From NCBI GenBank assembly GCA_021463195.1, contig JAJTXZ010000035.1, positions 1 to 45,843 on the forward strand: a stretch of 45,843 nucleotides of DNA. The letters are read 5' to 3'. Under the pieces are notes generated by a model, which saw only the letters and a program-made list of their open reading frames with translations, was not told the DNA's origin and did not search any database. Positions within the stretch are counted from its first letter, which is position 1; each line of letters begins with the position of its first letter. Below, one piece after another: positions 1-45,750 of this stretch. Origin of the DNA: Anaerolineae bacterium. GTDB taxonomy: Bacteria; Chloroflexota; Anaerolineae; UBA4142; SHND01. A program made the translations under genes and the position numbers.

Positions 1-780
1 GACGCGCGACAGCTGTGTTATTGTTTGACGCCCGCGCGTTTTCTCTGGCAATATGATGAATACGCGCGAAACGAAGCGCTGTCTGGCGCGGCGCGCGCGC
101 TGCTCCCCGCAGTAGTGACGTCGCTGCGCGAATGGGACCGACGCGCGGCGGCGCGGGTGGATGAATTTATCGCCATTTCGCGCGAAGTCCAAAAACGCAT
201 TCGCGCGTGCTACGGACGCGAGTCGAATTTGATTTATCCGCCGGTGGATGTCAATTTATTTCGCGTCGCCGCGCCGTCAGAGGTGAGCGATTATTTTTTG
301 ATTGTCTCGCGTTTGGTGCCGTACAAACGAATTGAGCTGGCGATTGAGGCGTTCAATCAAACGGGTTTGCCGCTGGTGATTGCGGGCGATGGCCGCGACC
401 GCGCGCGCCTTGAAGCGTTGGCGAAACCGAATGTAAAATTTTTGGGACGCGTATCCGACGCGGAACGGTTGGATTTGATGGCGCGCTGTCGGGCGTTCGT
501 CTTTCCGGGGCAAGAAGATTTTGGCATTACGCCGTTGGAAGCGAACGCGGCGGGGCGGCCCGTGCTTGCGTTTGGCGGGGGGGGGGCGCTGGATACCATT
601 GTCGAAGGCCTGAATGGCATGTTGTTTCACGCGCCGCGCGCCGAAGCGTTGAGCGCGTGTTTGCGCGCGTTTGACGCGCGCGCGTTCGATGCCGCGCGGA
701 TTCGCGCGCACGCGGAAAAATTCGACACTCGCGTTTTCCAAACCATGCTGCGCGAACATGTCTTGCGCGCGCGCGGATAA
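1..780 (+). CDS. GT4-family glycosyltransferase, 5' end outside window
   Basis: The frame is open from base 1 and 259 residues are visible. Near its start is a C-Y-C-x-T-P-x-R-F-L-W segment, which in bacterial GT4 sugar transferases lies in the first third of the protein, so roughly 100 or more N-terminal residues are missing. The C-terminal Rossmann half is complete: an SRLVPYKR motif, a G-D-G turn, and the E-x7-E motif (EDFGITPLE) that binds the nucleotide-sugar donor. It is expected to act on the cytoplasmic face of the membrane, adding one sugar to a lipid-linked glycan. It sits directly upstream of chain-length and dTDP-sugar genes, which fits exopolysaccharide or O-antigen assembly. A G10 tract at 577-586 encodes consecutive glycines in frame. 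Donor and acceptor sugars cannot be told from sequence. Confidence 0.9.
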   Translation, partial: DARQLCYCLTPARFLWQYDEYARNEALSGAARALLPAVVTSLREWDRRAAARVDEFIAISREVQKRIRACYGRESNLIYPPVDVNLFRVAAPSEVSDYFLIVSRLVPYKRIELAIEAFNQTGLPLVIAGDGRDRARLEALAKPNVKFLGRVSDAERLDLMARCRAFVFPGQEDFGITPLEANAAGRPVLAFGGGGALDTIVEGLNGMLFHAPRAEALSACLRAFDARAFDAARIRAHAEKFDTRVFQTMLREHVLRARG

Positions 781-12125: not shown

Positions 12126-12185
12126 AATTTTGGCGCTTATCCACTTTGGCGCGTAGGGCGCGGCAAACCAAGCGTGTTTGCATCT

Positions 12186-12281
12186 TTAGAGCGAATTCCT
12201 GATTCGTTTGTGGGGCAAGACCTTTCGGGTTTTCGGAAACCCGAAAGGTCTACCCACAAATCAAAGTGGAATCGGCTCTAA
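12186..12281. mobile_element. type-B palindromic MITE-like element, complete copy 1
   Basis: 96 bp with ends TTAGAGC and GCTCTAA; inside, GATTCGTTTGTGGG on the left mirrors CCCACAAATC on the right. The centre (12218-12251) is a near-perfect palindrome starting AGACC and ending GGTCT around TTTTCGGAAA. It is homologous, in reverse orientation, to 37067-37162, also 96 bp. No clear target duplication here. Confidence 0.65.
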
Positions 12282-12359
12282 TGCGCCCGCGGCAGCGTTA
12301 TCAGGCGAGTTCACTTGCGAACACTTTCTACGCGAGATGGGCAAGCGCCAAACAAAATT

Positions 12360-12453
12360 CTGGTGATTGCCCGGATTTCCAGACCCTAAGGGTTTTCGAA
12401 AACCCTTAGGGTCTGGAAACCCGCTACGTTTTCGAGATGTGGGTAATCACCAG
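12360..12453. mobile_element. type-A palindromic MITE-like element with 8-bp target duplication
   Basis: 94 bp. Terminal inverted repeats CTGGTGATTGCCC (12360-12372) and GGGTAATCACCAG (12441-12453) differ at one position. The core 12376-12419 is a perfect 44-bp palindrome. The element is flanked exactly by ACAAAATT at 12352-12359 and at 12454-12461, as expected for a target-site duplication. No coding capacity, so any mobility would depend on a transposase elsewhere. Confidence 0.8.
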
Positions 12454-12464
12454 ACAAAATTGGA

Positions 12465-12493
12465 TTGACGCCGCGCGCGGCTTGTGGTATAGT
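12465..12493 (+). promoter_or_regulatory. strong sigma70 promoter for the LysM lipoprotein
   Basis: TTGACG (12465-12470), a 17-nt spacer and TATAGT (12488-12493). The -35 box begins 11 nt after the end of the type-A element. Identical hexamers and spacings occur at 22765-22793. Confidence 0.75.
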
Positions 12494-12574: not shown

Positions 12575-13381
12575 ATGAGATTGTATTGTACCAAGGGTAT
12601 GTTGTTTGTCGCGCTTGCCCTCTTGGCTTGGAGCGTCGCCGCTTGCACTCAGAGCAAACCCGTCGTTCCAACCCCCACGCTAATTCCACTCGATAATACC
12701 AATGTGATTGTGCCGGGCGGCGACGCGACCTCTATCGCGCCCACGAACAATCAGACTCCGGTTGACAATGCGACGCTTGTGCCGATTGTTGGCGATCAGA
12801 CGCCCGTTGCGCCCACCGGCGGCGTTGCCACAGCCGAACCGCTGCCGCTCGATACGCCCGCTCCGAATGTCACCGCTATCATTATCGAGCCAACGCTGTT
12901 TCCCACACCTACTACGGTTGGCGATACGGGACAACCTTCCGCGCAAACGACGCCCGGCGCTCCGGGCAATGATACGCAATCGGGCGGCGCGAATGCCGAC
13001 GCGTGCGGCAATCCGTACACGGTGCTGCCCGGCGAATGGTTTCTGGCGATTGCGCGCAAATGCGGTGTGACGTCGCAAGCGCTTGCGGCAGCGAATCCGG
13101 GCGTGAATCCGAATTTGCTGCGTCCCGGTCAAACGCTGAATATTCCCGGCGGCGGCGCAACCGGTGGCGGCGCGCCGCCGCCCGCGCAACCGACGGCGAC
13201 GACGGGTGGCGCACAACCTCCCGCGACGGGCGGTTGTCCCAATCCTTATACCGTGCAGCGCGGCGATACGCTCTTTAGTATCGCGCAGCGGTGCGGCGTT
13301 ACCGTCGCGGCGATTCAACAAGCGAACGGCATTCCCGCGCCCGAATATATTTTCCCGGGCCAACAACTACGGATTCCCTAA
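12575..13381 (+). CDS. LysM-domain lipoprotein
   Basis: Protein of 268 residues. The signal peptide ends in lipobox VAAC (Cys24), so the protein is lipid-anchored outside the membrane. Residues 25-140 are a Pro/Thr/Asn-rich linker. Two LysM domains follow, at about 143-190 (NPYTVLPGEWFLAIARKCGV and onwards) and 221-268 (NPYTVQRGDTLFSIAQRCGV and onwards), each starting with a Cys and containing a second Cys, so each may carry a disulfide. LysM binds N-acetylglucosamine polymers such as peptidoglycan. A GGAG site precedes ATG 12575, with a strong promoter upstream and a terminator downstream: a single-gene unit. No catalytic domain is present. Confidence 0.9.
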   Translation: MRLYCTKGMLFVALALLAWSVAACTQSKPVVPTPTLIPLDNTNVIVPGGDATSIAPTNNQTPVDNATLVPIVGDQTPVAPTGGVATAEPLPLDTPAPNVTAIIIEPTLFPTPTTVGDTGQPSAQTTPGAPGNDTQSGGANADACGNPYTVLPGEWFLAIARKCGVTSQALAAANPGVNPNLLRPGQTLNIPGGGATGGGAPPPAQPTATTGGAQPPATGGCPNPYTVQRGDTLFSIAQRCGVTVAAIQQANGIPAPEYIFPGQQLRIP

Positions 13382-22675: not shown

Positions 22676-22753
22676 ATTCCGATTTAGGAGCAGAGAGAGA
22701 CCCGCAGGATTTTCGGAAACCCTGCGGGTCTAGAAATCTGGATAAATCACCAG
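22676..22753. mobile_element. chimeric palindromic element (type-A right end)
   Basis: Core stem AGACCCGCAGG (22698-22708) / CCTGCGGGTCT (22721-22731). To the right, GAAATCTGGATAAATCACCAG-like sequence equals the end of type-A copies. To the left, ATTCCGATTT matches the left flank of the element at 36995 instead. No target duplication was found. Confidence 0.55.
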
Positions 22754-22764
22754 TCGCTTTTTGT

Positions 22765-22793
22765 TTGACGCGTATTTGGAACTATGTTATAGT
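22765..22793 (+). promoter_or_regulatory. strong sigma70 promoter for the second transporter operon
   Basis: TTGACG (22765-22770), 17-nt spacer, TATAGT (22788-22793). The -35 box begins 11 nt after the CACCAG end of the repeat, the same layout as at 12453-12493. Confidence 0.75.
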
Positions 22794-23034: not shown

Positions 23035-23223
23035 AAACAGTCGCTACAATCTTGACGCTGTAATAACCAATCTGTATGCACTCGATTCTTTATTGCGCGC
23101 GGTCACCTTGAATTGGCGACGCGACCCGCCTGATAGTTTTGTGTCACGCGGTGTCTTGCAGTGAGAATTCGAGCATCAAACGGCACACCTATTTGTGTCA
23201 TAAATTCGCAGGAGGAGAAGGAA

Positions 23224-25077
23224 ATGAAAAAGTTTGCAATGCTTGCAGTCCTTGTCGCTTCGGTGGCGATGATTGCAGTGGCGTGCGGCGCGCCTGCCGC
23301 GCCGGCAGTTGTCCAGACTGCCGCGCCGATTATCCAGACGGTTGCGCCGGTTGTCCAAACTGTTGTGGTGCAACAGACTTCCGCGCCCGTCGTTCAGACC
23401 TCAGCGCCGGTGGTTCAGACGGTCGTCGTTCAACCAACCGCCGCGCCCGTCGCGGTCAATAAAGTTTTGCGCATCAATCTCGGTTCTTATCCCGACATCA
23501 TTGACCCGCAAAAATCTTCGTTCGTCAACGAAATCGCCCACCTCAAGCTGATGTACGAAGGTCTCACCAAGTTTGACACTAAACTTGCGACTGTTCCGGG
23601 CGCCGCCGAAAGTTGGAAATACAATGACGCCGCGACGGAATTGACCTTTACGCTGCGCGACGGTTTGAAATACAGCGACGGCACGTTGTTGAACGCCAAG
23701 CGCTTTCAATATTCGCTCATGCGCAATATTGACCCGCACACTGCCGGCGAATATGCGGCAATTACCGACGAAATCAAGGGCGCGCCCGAATGGCGTGGCG
23801 CGGACCTTTCCGCAGTCTCTGACGATGACCTTGCCAAGCTGCAAGCCGATGTTGCCGCCAGCGTGCAGGCGCTCGACAAGAGTGGTCAGCCGTGCAAAGA
23901 GGGTGAAGAAGGATACGCCCAAGCAGATTGCAATACCCTCAAGCTGACTTTTAGCAAACCCGCGCCCTATTTCCACACCATCATGGGCATCTGGGTCGCT
24001 TATCCCGCCAAAGAAGAAAATATCACCGAAGGCGGCGATAATTGGTGGAACAGCTCGAAATTCCAAATCGGCAACGGCCCCTACGTCCTCAAGACGCTTG
24101 AACCGTTTGTTCGCGCTCGTTTTGAACCCAACGCGAATTACTGGGGCGGCGCTGCCAAAGTGCCGATTGAATTCTCGTACATCGCCGATTCCGCTGTCTC
24201 TTTCCAAGCGTACAAGAATAACGAATTTGACATTATCGGTCTCGCCGCCGAAGACTTGGCGACGGTAAAAGCGGACCCGGTGCTCTCCAAAGAAGCGAAC
24301 ATCTTCCCCGGTTCTTGCACCTTTGCGGTCATGTTCCACCAACTCAAAGAACCTTTCACTGACCAAAAAGTGCGCGAAGCATTCGCGGAAGCGTTGAATC
24401 GCGATGGTTGGGTTACGGATGTGTTGCAAGGACTCGGCGCGTCAACCTTGACGTGGATTCCGCCCGGCTATCCTGGGTACGAAACCAGCACTAAATGGGG
24501 TTTTGATCCCGATCTCGCCAAGAAAACTTTGGCTGAATCCAAGTACGGCAGCGTGGACAAGCTGCCCGAAATCACCGCCACATTCAGTGATACGCCGCGC
24601 AACCGCACGCGCTATGACTGGCTCATTGGCAAGTGGAAAGAAGTTCTCGGCGTTGACGTGAAATTGAACCCCGTTGACCCGACGACCTTTACCGCGTTGA
24701 CCAAGGATATCAATACGGCGCCGCAAATGTTCATTCTCGGTTGGTGCGCGGATTATCCAGATCCACAGAACTGGCTGAGCGTCTACTGGCGGACCGGCGG
24801 TTTTGGCGAACGCATCGGTTACTCGAACCCCGACTTTGACAAGTTGGTGAATGAAGCCGATTCGACGGTTGATCCGGCGAAACGCGCGGACCTTTACGCG
24901 CAGGCGCAAAATCTCTTGATTGACGGCGCGCCGGTTGCGTTCATGTGGAACAATGTCAATACCTATATGATCAAGCCCTGGGTGACAGGTATCACAACCA
25001 CACCGCAGGACACGGATTTCCCCGGTTCACAAGACGTGGAATCCATTGATATTGACGTTAGCAAGTTGCCGCAATAA
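23224..25077 (+). CDS. peptide-type solute-binding lipoprotein (SBP family 5)
   Basis: Protein of 617 residues. The signal peptide ends in lipobox VAC (MKKFAMLAVLVASVAMIAVAC). Residues of about 27-80 are a VVQT-repeat linker (VVQT/IIQT units separated by AAP, VAP or SAP) before the family-5 domain, which starts near LRINLGSYPDIIDPQKSS and contains GNGPYVLKTLEPF and F-I-L-G-W-C-A-D-Y-P-D-P-Q-N-W. ATG 23224 follows an AGGAGGAG site; an in-frame GTG at 23161 is not supported. The insertion EWRGADLSAVSDDDLAKLQADVAAS-like region (two clauses around residue 200) is longer than in classic DppA. It should capture peptides for the permeases encoded at 25172-27294. Confidence 0.94.
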   Translation: MKKFAMLAVLVASVAMIAVACGAPAAPAVVQTAAPIIQTVAPVVQTVVVQQTSAPVVQTSAPVVQTVVVQPTAAPVAVNKVLRINLGSYPDIIDPQKSSFVNEIAHLKLMYEGLTKFDTKLATVPGAAESWKYNDAATELTFTLRDGLKYSDGTLLNAKRFQYSLMRNIDPHTAGEYAAITDEIKGAPEWRGADLSAVSDDDLAKLQADVAASVQALDKSGQPCKEGEEGYAQADCNTLKLTFSKPAPYFHTIMGIWVAYPAKEENITEGGDNWWNSSKFQIGNGPYVLKTLEPFVRARFEPNANYWGGAAKVPIEFSYIADSAVSFQAYKNNEFDIIGLAAEDLATVKADPVLSKEANIFPGSCTFAVMFHQLKEPFTDQKVREAFAEALNRDGWVTDVLQGLGASTLTWIPPGYPGYETSTKWGFDPDLAKKTLAESKYGSVDKLPEITATFSDTPRNRTRYDWLIGKWKEVLGVDVKLNPVDPTTFTALTKDINTAPQMFILGWCADYPDPQNWLSVYWRTGGFGERIGYSNPDFDKLVNEADSTVDPAKRADLYAQAQNLLIDGAPVAFMWNNVNTYMIKPWVTGITTTPQDTDFPGSQDVESIDIDVSKLPQ

Positions 25078-27356: not shown

Positions 27357-27449
27357 GTGTATGTAGCGCGGTCGCATGTGATAAACTGTATTGCCGCGCT
27401 CTGCAATATGACACGTTGCGCGATTTGCGAGAATCCCGTTTGTGTATGT

Positions 27450-27560
27450 CTCGTGATCACCCCCATCTCGAAAACGTAACGGATTTCCAGACCCCAAGGG
27501 TTTGGCGATGAACTCTATCGCAGAAAACCCTTGGGGCCTGGAAATTCAGGTAATCACCGG
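27450..27560. mobile_element. type-A palindromic MITE-like element, second copy
   Basis: 111 bp, in the opposite orientation to 12360-12453. The end CTCGTGATCACC corresponds to CTGGTGATTGCC and the other end to GGTAATCACCGG; the arm ATCTCGAAAACGTAAC is shared with the other copy in reverse. The core palindrome (27484-27544) has a longer loop with its own GCGAT/ATCGC stem. Flanks GTGTATGT (27442-27449) and GCGTATGT (27561-27568) are a 7-of-8 target duplication. Confidence 0.72.
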
Positions 27561-27590
27561 GCGTATGTTTATCGCATAATGTTTTTTGCG

Positions 27591-27596
27591 TATAAT
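27591..27596 (+). promoter_or_regulatory. -10 box for the third transporter operon
   Basis: Perfect TATAAT at 27591-27596, 30 nt after the end of the type-A element; no good -35 box is at 17 nt (TTTATC at 27568-27573), so an activator may be needed. Confidence 0.45.
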
Positions 27597-27902: not shown

Positions 27903-29693
27903 ATGCAATCTCGTCGCCTTAAATTGGCGCTTCCGTTAATGGCGCTCATCGCGCTATTGGTCGCTGCCGCGTGCGCGCCTGCCGCGCAGCCGCCGGTAGT
28001 TCAAACCGTCGTCGTCGAAAAGGTCCAAACTAGCGCGCCGGTTGTGCAAACCCAAGTCGTCGAAAAGGTCCAAACCAGCGCGCCGGTCGTTCAGACTGTC
28101 GTCGTTCAGGCAACCGCTGTGCCTGCTCAAGCGCCGCAAGCATTTGTTTTTGGCGCGCAAGGCGAACCGGTTTGTCTCGACCCGGCGATCATCACCGACG
28201 GTATTTCAGGACGCGTAACCAACCAGATTTACGAAGGTCTGGTGAAATTTGACAAAGACACGACGAATCCCGTGCCATCCCTTGCCAAGAGTTGGACGAC
28301 CTCTGCCGATGGCAAAGAATGGACGTTTAAACTGCAAGAAGGCGTCAAGTTCCACGACGGCACCGACTTTAACGCCGATGCGGTTATCAAGAACTTTGAT
28401 TATTGGGGCAATACCAAGAACGCGCAGCATGATGGCCAAGTCAAAGCAGGACAGATCTTTGAATATTACGAAGCGCAGTTCGGCGGCTTTGACGAAAATA
28501 GTATCATCGAAAAAATCGAAGCCGTTGACCCCACCACCGTCAAATTTACCCTCCGACAGCCGCAAGGTCCGTTTTTGAATAATCTGGCAATGTTCGTCTT
28601 TGTGTTTGCCAGTCCGACCGCGCTCGAAAAGTACGGCGTTGACACGTGCAAGAACCCCGTCGGCACCGGCCCGTACAAATTTGTCGAATGGAAACCGAAC
28701 GAACAAGTGACGCTTGACGCATTCGCGGATTATTGGGACAAGGCGAACGCGCCCAAGATGCAACGCGTTATCGTTCGCAACATCCCGAACAACTCGGCGC
28801 GCTTGCTCGCTCTCGCCGCCGGTGAAATCAACGCGCTGGAAGGCATGGAACCGCGCGATGTCGCCGCTATCAAAGATGACCCGCGCTTCAAGCTGCTCTT
28901 GCGCCCGACCAATACGACCGGTTATCTCGCGTTCAACTATAACGTCAAAGAATTCAACGATCCCAAAGTGCGCCAGGCATTCGCCCAAGCCATCAACAAA
29001 AAAGCCATCGTGGATGCGCTCTATGGCGGCACCGGTTTGGTCGCTAATCAATTCCAACCGCCATCGCTGTGGGGTTATAATCACGACCTCAAAGATTGGG
29101 ATTATGACACCGAAGCCGCCAAGAAATTGCTGGCTGATGCCGGTTTCGCCAACGGTTTGAGCGAAGTAACCTTTAACGATAAAAAAGTGCCGCTCGAACT
29201 TTGGTACATGCCGGTCTCGCGCCCGTACTATCCGAATCCCAAAGATATCGGAACGGCAATGGCGGCTGACCTTGCCAAAGCGGGCATCAATGTCTCACTT
29301 CAGACGGTTGACTGGGCGACATATCTCAGTCGCCGCGCCAACGGTGAATTGCCGCTCTATATGCTCGGCTGGACGGGCGATAACGGCGATCCCGACAACT
29401 TTGTCTGCTACTTTTTCTGCTTGAGCGCGGATGACAAACCCCTTTCGCGTGAAGGTTTTGTAAATGACAAAGCATTGTCCGATTTGCTCCGAAAAGCCGC
29501 CGCGACGACTGAACAAGCCGAACGCGCCAAGATGTATCAGGAATCCGAGCAGATGATTCATGACAATATCTGGCGTGTTTTCATCGCCAACAATCAACCG
29601 CCGCTGGCGCTTGGCGCAAACGTGACCGGATACATCCCGAACCCAACTGGAACCGAATTCTTTAACACAGTCGAAGTCAAAGCCACACCGTAA
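27903..29693 (+). CDS. peptide-type solute-binding lipoprotein (SBP family 5)
   Basis: Protein of 596 residues. Signal peptide with lipobox AAC (MQSRRLKLALPLMALIALLV, then AAAC). A linker of about 50 residues repeats VVQT, VVEKVQT and SAPVVQT units, paralogous to that of the protein at 23224. The domain opens with EPVCLDPAIITDGISGRVTNQ and shows the classic IYEGLVKFD, PVGTGPYKFVEWKP and Y-M-L-G-W-T-G-D-N-G-D-P-D-N-F landmarks of DppA-like proteins. A strong AAGGAGGAG site precedes ATG 27903. Two Cys near the C-terminus (FVCYFFCLS) match a DppA feature. It should serve the permeases encoded downstream. Confidence 0.95.
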   Translation: MQSRRLKLALPLMALIALLVAAACAPAAQPPVVQTVVVEKVQTSAPVVQTQVVEKVQTSAPVVQTVVVQATAVPAQAPQAFVFGAQGEPVCLDPAIITDGISGRVTNQIYEGLVKFDKDTTNPVPSLAKSWTTSADGKEWTFKLQEGVKFHDGTDFNADAVIKNFDYWGNTKNAQHDGQVKAGQIFEYYEAQFGGFDENSIIEKIEAVDPTTVKFTLRQPQGPFLNNLAMFVFVFASPTALEKYGVDTCKNPVGTGPYKFVEWKPNEQVTLDAFADYWDKANAPKMQRVIVRNIPNNSARLLALAAGEINALEGMEPRDVAAIKDDPRFKLLLRPTNTTGYLAFNYNVKEFNDPKVRQAFAQAINKKAIVDALYGGTGLVANQFQPPSLWGYNHDLKDWDYDTEAAKKLLADAGFANGLSEVTFNDKKVPLELWYMPVSRPYYPNPKDIGTAMAADLAKAGINVSLQTVDWATYLSRRANGELPLYMLGWTGDNGDPDNFVCYFFCLSADDKPLSREGFVNDKALSDLLRKAAATTEQAERAKMYQESEQMIHDNIWRVFIANNQPPLALGANVTGYIPNPTGTEFFNTVEVKATP

Positions 29694-34584: not shown

Positions 34585-36843
34585 ATGTCGAATCAAATTT
34601 ATACCTATACTGCCGAAATTGGCAGCGAAACGCTCACAATCGAAGCGGGACGGTTTGCCTTTCAAGCCAATGGCGCGGTGACGGTGCGACAAAGCGATAC
34701 AATCATTTTGTCCACCGCGACCATGTCGGCGAAACCGCGCGAAGGCGCGGACTTTTTTCCGCTCACAGTGGATTACGAAGAACGTTTGTATGCCGCAGGT
34801 AAAATCCCCGGTTCATTTTTCAAACGCGAAGGCAGGGCTTCCGAAAACGCGATTTTGATTTGTCGTCTGACCGACCGCCCCATTCGTCCGCTGTTTCCCA
34901 AAGGAATGCGGAATGATGTGCAGGTCGTCATGACCGCGCTGTCCGCCGACCAAGAACATTTCATTGACGTCATGTCCATTCTCGGCGCGAGCGCGGCGTT
35001 AACGATTAGCGATATTCCGTTTCTCGGTCCTGTCGGCGCCGTGCGCGTCGGCTATGTGGATGGACGCTTTATCATGAATCCGACGGTCGCGCAAATGGAA
35101 CAATCTATTTTGGATTTGCGCCTCGCGGGCACGCGCGACGCCGTCATTATGATTGAAGCGGGCGCGAGCGAAGTGACCGAAGAATTGATGCTCGAAGCGA
35201 TTTACGCGGGACATCAAGCGTTTCAACCGCTCATTGATTTGCAGGAACGGATGCGCGCGGAAATCGGCAAACCGAAAACGACAGTGCCGCTCTTTACGGT
35301 CAGCGCCACAGTCAAAAGCGCTGTGCATGAAAAAATCGCGCCGCGCATCGCCGGCATTCTCAGCAGCGGTTATGGCAAATCGGAACGCGGCGGAATGCTC
35401 GATGCCGTGACCGCGGAAATCCAGATTGAACTCGGCGAACAATACGCGCCCGCCGATGTCGCCTCAGCGGTGGACGCCGAAGTCAAAGCGCAACTGCGCG
35501 CGTTGATTGTGAACGAAAATAAACGCGTGGATGGACGCGATACGAAAACGGTGCGTCCGCTTTCGGCGAACGTAGGTTTGCTGCCGCGCGCGCACGGCAC
35601 CGGCTTGTTTCAACGCGGCGAGACCCAAGTGCTGACGATTGCGACATTGGGGATGCCGAGCGAAGCGCAGAAAATTGATACGCTCGATCCCGACGATTCC
35701 AAACGCTATCTGCATCATTATAATTTTCCGCCTTATTCGGTCGGCGAAACGCGTCCGATGCGCGCGCCCGGCCGTCGCGAAATCGGACACGGCGCGCTCG
35801 CGGAACGCGCGCTCGTCGCCGTTATTCCGACTGAACAAGAATTTCCGTACACGATTCGGCTCGTATCCGAAGTCTTGTCGTCCAATGGTTCGACTTCGAT
35901 GGCAAGCGTTTGCGGCTCTACGCTCGCGCTGATGGATGCCGGCGTGCCAATCAGCGCGCCGGTCGCGGGCATTGCGATGGGCTTGATTGTAGAGGGCGAG
36001 CGTTACGCGATTTTGACGGACATTCTTGGCATGGAGGACGCGCTCGGCGACATGGATTTCAAAGTCGCGGGGACGAGCATGGGCATTACCGCGCTGCAAC
36101 TCGATTTGAAATTGCAAGGCATCGCGCCGGCGATTCTCAAAGAGGCGTTGACGCAAGCGCGCGACGCGCGGCTGAAAATCCTCAAAGTCATTACAGATAC
36201 CATCGCCGAACCGCGCGTGGAACTTTCACGCTATGCGCCGCGCATTCAAACGATTAAAATTGACCCCGAGAAAATCGGCGCGCTCATTGGCCCCGGCGGC
36301 AAGACGATTCGCGGCTTGCAAGAAGAATTTCAGGTCAAGATTGATGTTGAAGAAGATGGCACGGTCTTTGTCGCCGGCGTGAGTGGCGAAGGCACGGTCG
36401 GCGTGATGGACCGTATTCGCGCCATGACCGAATCGCCCAAACTCGGCTCGATTTATACGGGCAAAGTCGTGCGACTCGCCGAATTTGGCGTATTTGTCGA
36501 AATCGCGCCGGGCATGGATGGTCTGGTGCATGTTTCACAGCTCGCCGATTACCAAGTCAAAGACCCGCGCGATGTCGTCAAAGAAGGCGATGACGTGATG
36601 GTGATGATTACGGATATTGACGCGCAGGGCAAGATTCGTTTGTCGCGGCGCGCGGTGCTTGAAGGTTGGACGGTAGAGCAGGCGCGCGAGGCGGACCCCA
36701 AGTTGGGCAGCGGCGGCGGCGACCGCGGCAGCTCGCGTGGTCCGCGGCGTGACGGTGACCGCGGCGGTTCACGCGGCCCACGGCGTGACGGCGACCGCGG
36801 CGGCTATGATCGTCCGCGTCGTGATAATCCTCCGCGACGATAA
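34585..36843 (+). CDS. pnp: polyribonucleotide nucleotidyltransferase (PNPase)
   Basis: Protein of 752 residues. Two RNase PH domains (about 10-230 and 310-540) carry the conserved FFPLTVDYEERLYAAGKIPGSFFKREGR and the second-core GSTSMASVCGSTLALMDAGVP; a KH domain follows at about 556-615 (IGALIGPGGKTIR) and an S1 domain at about 620-690 (GKVVRLAEFGVFVEIAPG). The tail from about 705 is a set of RGxxRGPRRDGDRGG repeats, an RGG-type RNA-binding extension. It degrades RNA 3' to 5' using phosphate. The start is supported by a GGAGG site. A terminator follows at once. Confidence 0.97.
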   Translation: MSNQIYTYTAEIGSETLTIEAGRFAFQANGAVTVRQSDTIILSTATMSAKPREGADFFPLTVDYEERLYAAGKIPGSFFKREGRASENAILICRLTDRPIRPLFPKGMRNDVQVVMTALSADQEHFIDVMSILGASAALTISDIPFLGPVGAVRVGYVDGRFIMNPTVAQMEQSILDLRLAGTRDAVIMIEAGASEVTEELMLEAIYAGHQAFQPLIDLQERMRAEIGKPKTTVPLFTVSATVKSAVHEKIAPRIAGILSSGYGKSERGGMLDAVTAEIQIELGEQYAPADVASAVDAEVKAQLRALIVNENKRVDGRDTKTVRPLSANVGLLPRAHGTGLFQRGETQVLTIATLGMPSEAQKIDTLDPDDSKRYLHHYNFPPYSVGETRPMRAPGRREIGHGALAERALVAVIPTEQEFPYTIRLVSEVLSSNGSTSMASVCGSTLALMDAGVPISAPVAGIAMGLIVEGERYAILTDILGMEDALGDMDFKVAGTSMGITALQLDLKLQGIAPAILKEALTQARDARLKILKVITDTIAEPRVELSRYAPRIQTIKIDPEKIGALIGPGGKTIRGLQEEFQVKIDVEEDGTVFVAGVSGEGTVGVMDRIRAMTESPKLGSIYTGKVVRLAEFGVFVEIAPGMDGLVHVSQLADYQVKDPRDVVKEGDDVMVMITDIDAQGKIRLSRRAVLEGWTVEQAREADPKLGSGGGDRGSSRGPRRDGDRGGSRGPRRDGDRGGYDRPRRDNPPRR

Positions 36844-36994: not shown

Positions 36995-37066
36995 TCAGAG
37001 CGAATTCCGATTTGGTTTAGAATAAAAAGACCCGTTGGATTTCCGAAAACCCAACGGGTTTATCCC
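36995..37066. mobile_element. palindromic element, partial type-B relative
   Basis: Starts TCAGAGCGAATTCC, matching type-B ends, then ATTCCGATTT as in the element at 22676. The core AGACCCGTTGG.../...CCAACGGGTTT (37028-37061) is palindromic around TTTCCGAAAA. Its right part runs straight into the next element, so one copy may have inserted into the other. Confidence 0.55.
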
Positions 37067-37162
37067 CTAGCGCCGATTTCACTTTGATTTGTGAATAGGT
37101 TTTTCGGGTTTCCGGAAATCCGAAAAGTCTTGCTCCGCAAACGGATTAGGAATTCGCTCTAA
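37067..37162. mobile_element. type-B palindromic MITE-like element, complete copy 2
   Basis: 96 bp, reverse orientation relative to 12186-12281, with the same length. Shared landmarks: GCCGATTTCACTTTGATTTG on the left, AGGAATTCGCTCTAA on the right, central TTTCGGGTTTCCGGAAATCC. The core stem has drifted but keeps pairing. Confidence 0.65.
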
Positions 37163-37296
37163 ATCAGCGCTTGCGAATGCTTTTGATTCGTGGCAGACTG
37201 ACATGCGGAAACGTCCGCAGAGACGTTTCGTGTATTTGTTGCGAGCGAATTCGATTCGCCCAAAAGCGTGACACGCGCCCCACTGCGCTCGCGCTA

Positions 37297-45673: not shown

Positions 45674-45711
45674 CAAATCAATTTCTAAAACGGCGCGCCG
45701 CGCGCGCCGTT

Positions 45712-45750
45712 CTAAAGCGGATTCCTAATTCGTATGTGGGCAAGAGACCT
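45712..45750. mobile_element. truncated type-B element (left end)
   Basis: CTAAAGCGGATTCCTAATTC, then TATGTGGGCAAGAGACCT, match the left arm of the copy at 12186 (TTAGAGCGAATTCCTGATTC, then TTTGTGGGGCAAGACCT). The palindromic core and right arm are missing beyond 45750. Confidence 0.55.

Follow-up and report, generated by a model that had tools for sequence, protein, structure and literature searches.

The window examined here, the whole of contig 73 (45,843 nucleotides) in a draft genome of 4.72 Mb, contains three copies of a palindromic repeat. The first, a full copy of 94 bp at 12360–12453 on the forward strand, has terminal inverted repeats (TIRs) CTGGTGATTGCCC and GGGTAATCACCAG flanking a long central palindrome, and scores 109.7 bits over positions 1–94 of model R1; its DNA fold has a z-score of −10, corresponding to a long hairpin. 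It is bordered by two identical segments, ACAAAATT (12352–12359 and 12454–12461), a target site duplication (TSD). A −35 box (TTGACG, 12465–12470, forward strand) starts 3 nt past the duplication and 11 nt (12454–12464) past the element end, and is followed after a 17-nt spacer by a −10 box (TATAGT, 12488–12493, forward strand). Downstream of this promoter lies a forward-strand gene for a LysM protein (12575–13381; Pfam PF01476) with a lipobox-like leader in its translation. The second copy is partial, comprising the right half and end of the element (22698–22753, forward strand), and is fused, at a palindrome that both possess, to the left half of a different repeat family. The forward-strand promoter beside it (22765–22793) has TTGACG (22765–22770) and TATAGT (22788–22793) separated by 17 nt, and begins 11 nt from the element end at 22753; the SBP_bac_5 peptide-binding protein gene at 23161–25077 (forward strand; Pfam) follows. 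The third copy is a full element on the reverse strand (27450–27560) with an altered hairpin loop, scoring 74.6 bits with model R1; its flanks, GTGTATGT (27442–27449) and GCGTATGT (27561–27568), represent an 8-bp duplication with one mismatch. TATAAT (27591–27596, forward strand) is found 30 nt from its end, with no good −35 box where one is expected, and another SBP_bac_5 gene (27903–29693, forward strand; Pfam) is encoded beyond it.

The first-pass annotation of this DNA had described two copies as set at an identical distance from their promoters and a third as ending 30 nt before TATAAT, with all three promoters driving exported lipoproteins. For the first two copies the geometry is exactly as it was given. 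The TATAAT 30 nt from the third copy was also found, but this copy falls outside the shared geometry because it has a weak −35 region and a −10 box about 4 nt closer than in copies 1 and 2. The three genes in the window are indeed a LysM gene and two SBP_bac_5 genes, but genes behind targeted promoters are diverse genome-wide, and the lipoprotein link is a coincidence of a small sample. Several oligopeptide-type transporter clusters with similar, apparently paralogous genes (repeat families D1, D7 and D16; SBP_bac_5 genes) stand in a row between 14613 and 33799.

To recover the repeat genome-wide, a covariance model built from 24 copies was combined with nhmmer, and copies were analysed from separate stretches of the genome. 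The genome contains 137 occurrences of the pattern AATCACCAG, compared with eight for the reversed control, and 63 full copies with both flanks were obtained. Alignment of the 24 copies defined a 94-bp element without coding capacity, bounded by an imperfect 13-bp TIR, CTGGTGATTRCCC, with an interior of two differing subterminal arms around the central palindrome. Exact target duplications of at least 7 bp (7–10 bp, most commonly 7 or 8) flank 35 of the 63 copies. Judged by its sequence, the repeat is a miniature inverted-repeat transposable element (MITE): it is short and non-coding, has TIRs and a TSD, and its TIRs are common to autonomous, transposase-encoding elements in other genomes (L318 and L393, described below). 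Rfam gave no match within the window. REP/RAYT systems move without target duplication and use a Y1 transposase; this identity was ruled out, as duplications exist here and an element with the same TIR encodes a DDE, not a Y1, transposase.

Distances to promoters were then compared across all 63 copies. TTGAC occurs 10, 11 and 12 nt outside the element ends 9, 13 and 4 times, respectively, together accounting for 26 of 126 ends, while every other distance up to 51 nt yields 0–3 occurrences; the expectation is roughly 1 in 1000 per position. Promoters were predicted from consensus, a promoter-like pair being defined as TTGnnn-16..18-TAnnnT with at least 8 of 12 matches. Such pairs peak at offsets 10, 11 and 12, where 9, 8 and 5 ends carry one; shuffling gives a mean of 0.06 for each offset. 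The offset of the −35 box tracks the length of the duplication, from 9 nt with a 6-bp TSD through 10 nt (7 bp), 11 nt (8 bp) and 12 nt (9 bp) to 13 nt (10 bp), and the offset exceeds the TSD length by 3 in 36 of 41 cases. In copies whose TSD is exact, a −35/−10 pair starts 3 nt past the duplication in 16 of 35 in this genome and in 24 of 33 from other genomes of the class; pair counts at other offsets are 0–9, mostly 0–3. Random distances in other copies, which the first-pass annotation had named as evidence against its proposal, were thus not observed. A recognizable promoter is present at 30 of the 63 copies with at least 8 matches (4 after shuffling) and at 44 with at least 7 (15 after shuffling). 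Because some young copies with a perfect TSD, such as L032 and L033, have no recognizable promoter, targeting is either leaky or includes promoters invisible to the consensus. The A end of the element faces the promoter 19 times and the B end 6 times. At one promoter (L107:2080–2275) two MITE copies lie in tandem with TTTTTTCC repeated, which could reflect either duplication in tandem or two separate insertions at a single site; this locus was kept out of the evidence.

The same geometry extends beyond this genome. Of 60 genomes searched, 24 contain the 13-bp TIR, the window's own genome among them, with controls near zero. Other genera carry MITEs with the same TIR, mostly 77–157 bp long, whose interiors are unrelated, and these show the same duplications and geometry. 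When 396 genomes of the class were searched for the TIR followed by TTGAC at 0–30 nt, the gap was 10–12 nt in 64 of the 84 matches listed. Across 84,980 species, the TIR with a 10–11-nt gap to TTGAC was recovered in 110 stretches; among the 80 listed, about 69 are from Chloroflexota, and the remainder is at about chance level (our own estimate is about 15). Among the sequences scanned here, the family appears almost only in Chloroflexota.

An autonomous parent was identified in another genome. L318 (JAJYLQ010000012.1) is a 1453-bp insertion sequence with TIRs CCGGTGATTACCC and GGGTAATCACCAG, TSD flanks AATGTAAA and ATTGTAAA, and a single open reading frame of 463 codons, the start codon being provisional; it ends 11 nt before the promoter TTGACT-17-TATAAT. 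A second long copy, L393 (1424 bp), has perfect TIRs and an interrupted frame, is without a clear TSD and lies 11 nt before TTGAAA-17-TATAAT. L395 (789 bp) is a MITE-like deletion derivative with transposase remnants inside and the TSD TCTGTTTT. Of the 396 genomes of the class, 20 contain relatives of the transposase, among them a congener of the window's organism, which has a fragment (L394). None was found in the window's own genome, so the mobilizing enzyme there is deduced from the TIR match, and the MITE would have been cross-mobilized or its parent lost. DDE_Tnp_1 and IS1595 transposases of MITE-rich genomes were considered as parents and rejected, since no matching TIR pairs surround them. 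Single TIRs in relatives were also checked for an autonomous partner and yielded none; one is accompanied by an IS110-type gene (L221). At that locus the IS110-type transposase gene lies just inside the TIR (inward from 8796), itself upstream of a promoter, TTGCGG-17-TATAAT, and this is probably an IS110 element inserted in a MITE.

Comparison of the transposase profile with PDB matched Tn5 transposase (1mus, E 1.9e-6) over residues 182–362, the catalytic region. Matches to the NCBIfam families IS4_2, IS4_3, IS701, IS1380 and IS1634 are weak and all far below the family cut-offs (IS4_2, E 6e-12 for L393; IS4_3, E 5e-17 for the distant relative L427); with IS4_1 to IS4_4, the best score among close relatives was 45 bits against a cut-off of 152. 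No Pfam family reached its cut-off for the transposase, PF01609 included, and an AlphaFold model had a mean pLDDT of 50. On catalytic-domain homology we assign the predicted protein to the DDE transposases of the IS4/Tn5 superfamily. The TIRs of IS50 and IS10 start with CTG, as does the TIR of the new family, and the IS50/IS10 group of IS4 generates 9-bp target duplications, whereas those described here are mostly 7–8 bp. Tn5 and the IS4 superfamily are thus the closest protein relatives of the new family, although it reaches none of the family cut-offs and makes shorter duplications. We know of no description of promoter targeting for Tn5 or IS4.

An element-free counterpart was available for one targeted promoter. 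In the window's genome a citrate-synthase-like gene, named by reading its protein, has the promoter TTGACA-16-TATAAT with an element 11 nt upstream. In the congener G001 the matching promoter is without the element (CGAAAAAAATCTC TTTGACA...TATAAT versus CGAAAATTCC TTTGACA...TATAAT), and the more distant G008 and G018 likewise have a consensus citrate-synthase promoter without it. At this one shared locus the promoter therefore predates the insertion. The preference for DNA just upstream of −35 boxes, which the first-pass annotation had offered as one of two explanations, is borne out at sequence level by the MITE anatomy with its duplications, the one-nucleotide rule, the same geometry in elements of unrelated interior, the autonomous parent and this one element-free promoter in a congener. 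Its other suggestion, that the element serves as an upstream activating or insulating site, gained no support: MITEs with unrelated interiors follow the rule as well, and promoters are found facing either end, making that reading unneeded. We therefore favour, with a probability of about 0.87, a reading in which the MITE derives from a family of roughly 1.4-kb insertion sequences that carry the TIR CTGGTGATTACCC and encode an IS4/Tn5-superfamily DDE transposase, and in which this transposase selects sigma70-type promoters.

The main rival is that the transposase reads the word TTGAC(A) directly, with a bias for exposed promoter DNA; promoters would then be seen at the insertion sites only because selection removes insertions from genes and most TTGACs in non-coding DNA belong to promoters. 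No single feature of the sites is stronger than a TTGAC at constant distance, and insertion sequences with short sequence targets are common. The two readings were compared at loci picked by TIR and TTGAC alone from the scan of 84,980 species. In Chloroflexota, 59 of 68 targeted TTGACs are followed by a −10 hexamer (at least 4 of 6 matches) at 16–18 nt, compared with 76 of the 1023 remaining TTGACs in these loci and with 15 of 59 background TTGACs lying outside open frames of 100 codons. Moreover, where the −35 box is poor (at most 3 of 6), −10 hexamers still concentrate at an offset of 33–34 nt. Both observations argue that the target is the promoter and not TTGAC alone, and we consider direct word reading a possible but rather doubtful explanation. 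A general preference for A+T-rich or bent DNA or for UP elements, from which the association with promoters would follow, could account for target sites being A-rich 7–11 nt upstream of −35. The duplicated segment is, however, variable and only mildly A-rich, while conservation is strong in the −35 and −10 hexamers (targets having been partly chosen on these), and the anchor is the −35 box rather than the duplicated segment; such a preference is therefore very improbable as the primary cause.

It is also conceivable that insertion is random and that selection retains elements near promoters as activators, insulators or host-protein binding sites, in keeping with the long hairpin and the excess of A ends over B ends toward promoters. 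Selection would not couple the position of the −35 box to TSD length with one-nucleotide accuracy, however, and the geometry is the same in elements with unrelated interiors and in full-length insertion sequences, with diverse genes downstream, so we give this possibility very little weight. Least credible of all is that the promoters were created by the element or its insertion. Many insertion sequences and MITEs do provide a −35 box or a whole promoter (PMC9330008, PMC10969869), but here neither box falls within the element or the duplication, and G001 and more distantly related genomes have the citrate-synthase promoter, the one locus compared, in element-free form.

A model of promoter selection by the transposase can be outlined. 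The MITE would be an internally deleted, non-autonomous derivative of the 1.42–1.45-kb insertion sequences. One strand would be joined at a constant position, 3 nt before the −35 hexamer, and the second strand 6–10 nt (mostly 7–8) further upstream, so that the duplication would fall on the proximal UP-element region and leave the core promoter intact. A transposase measuring from the −35 box can produce such a rule; selection acting on retained copies could hardly do so. On the standard map of sigma70 promoters, the insertion site lies between the bases contacted by sigma region 4 and the proximal site of the alpha C-terminal domain; promoter-bound polymerase, or DNA shape resulting from it, is for this reason a likely guide. 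The recognized object may accordingly be the RNA polymerase holoenzyme bound at the promoter, by way of its alpha C-terminal domain or of sigma region 4, or else the shape that the enzyme imposes on promoter DNA, and the benefit may be a landing site of little harm to the host, as for Ty3 at Pol III genes. In its most specific form, on which we would place roughly even odds, the transposase of this family of insertion sequences and MITEs would dock on promoter-bound sigma70 holoenzyme and integrate 3 nt upstream of −35, representing a bacterial counterpart of Ty3/TFIIIB that has spread through Chloroflexota.

Bacterial transposons are usually thought to choose random sites, short sequence words, att sites or replication structures, and a search of the open-access literature found no bacterial promoter-homing transposon described. 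Reviews of bacterial MITEs and of the interplay between insertion sequences and promoters treat promoters as element-borne or formed by fusion, and not as resident targets to which an element homes (PMC10969869, PMC9330008). The closest behaviour is seen in Ty3 and other retrotransposons that target tRNA genes; they integrate beside promoters with nucleotide precision and leave the gene usable, Ty3 doing so via TFIIIB (PMC5911963). A precise distance to the promoter is likewise found here, and targeting through the transcription machinery would be shared under our model; the elements are unrelated, however, Ty3 and its like using eukaryotic retrotransposon integrases and acting at Pol III genes. 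Correia elements and other bacterial MITEs are similarly small, TIR-bounded intergenic repeats near genes, but promoters lie inside Correia elements, whereas the new MITE inserts at a fixed distance beside an existing promoter (PMC10969869). Insertion sequences that form hybrid (fusion) promoters or have TATA-like targets also couple insertion geometry to promoter elements; in hybrid promoters the end of the insertion sequence gives a −35 box to a resident −10 box, while here both boxes are the target's (PMC9330008). REP-targeting insertion sequences have a defined intergenic target too, but theirs is a repeat sequence rather than a promoter (PMC1525189). If correct, landing beside sigma70 promoters with one-nucleotide precision would constitute a new mode of target selection in bacteria and would explain how transposons reach high copy number in intergenic DNA with little harm; it would also provide a natural label for the promoters that are active in uncultured Chloroflexota, and point to a tool for inserting DNA immediately upstream of promoters.

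Several further repeats were noted. A second palindromic family with ends like GAGCGAATTCC occurs in the window at 12185–12280, 37028–37163 and 45699–45739, and its core hairpin, AGACC..GGGTTTTCGGAAACCC..GGTCT, is also present, with compensatory changes, in the MITE and in several other repeat families of the genome. The chimera that contains the second copy (22677–22753) joins half of this family to half of the CTGG MITE at the common palindrome, which suggests recombination between repeat families via the hairpin. The PNPase gene (34585–36843) contains three 36-nt tandem repeats at its 3′ end (36717–36824). Finally, three contig ends (L135:1–99, L136:1–99 and L137:1–132) lie inside MITE copies whose palindrome centre is cut by another repeated sequence, which ends in ATATTCAAATGCGCTCT and is apparently a second insertion sequence with the MITE hairpin as its target.
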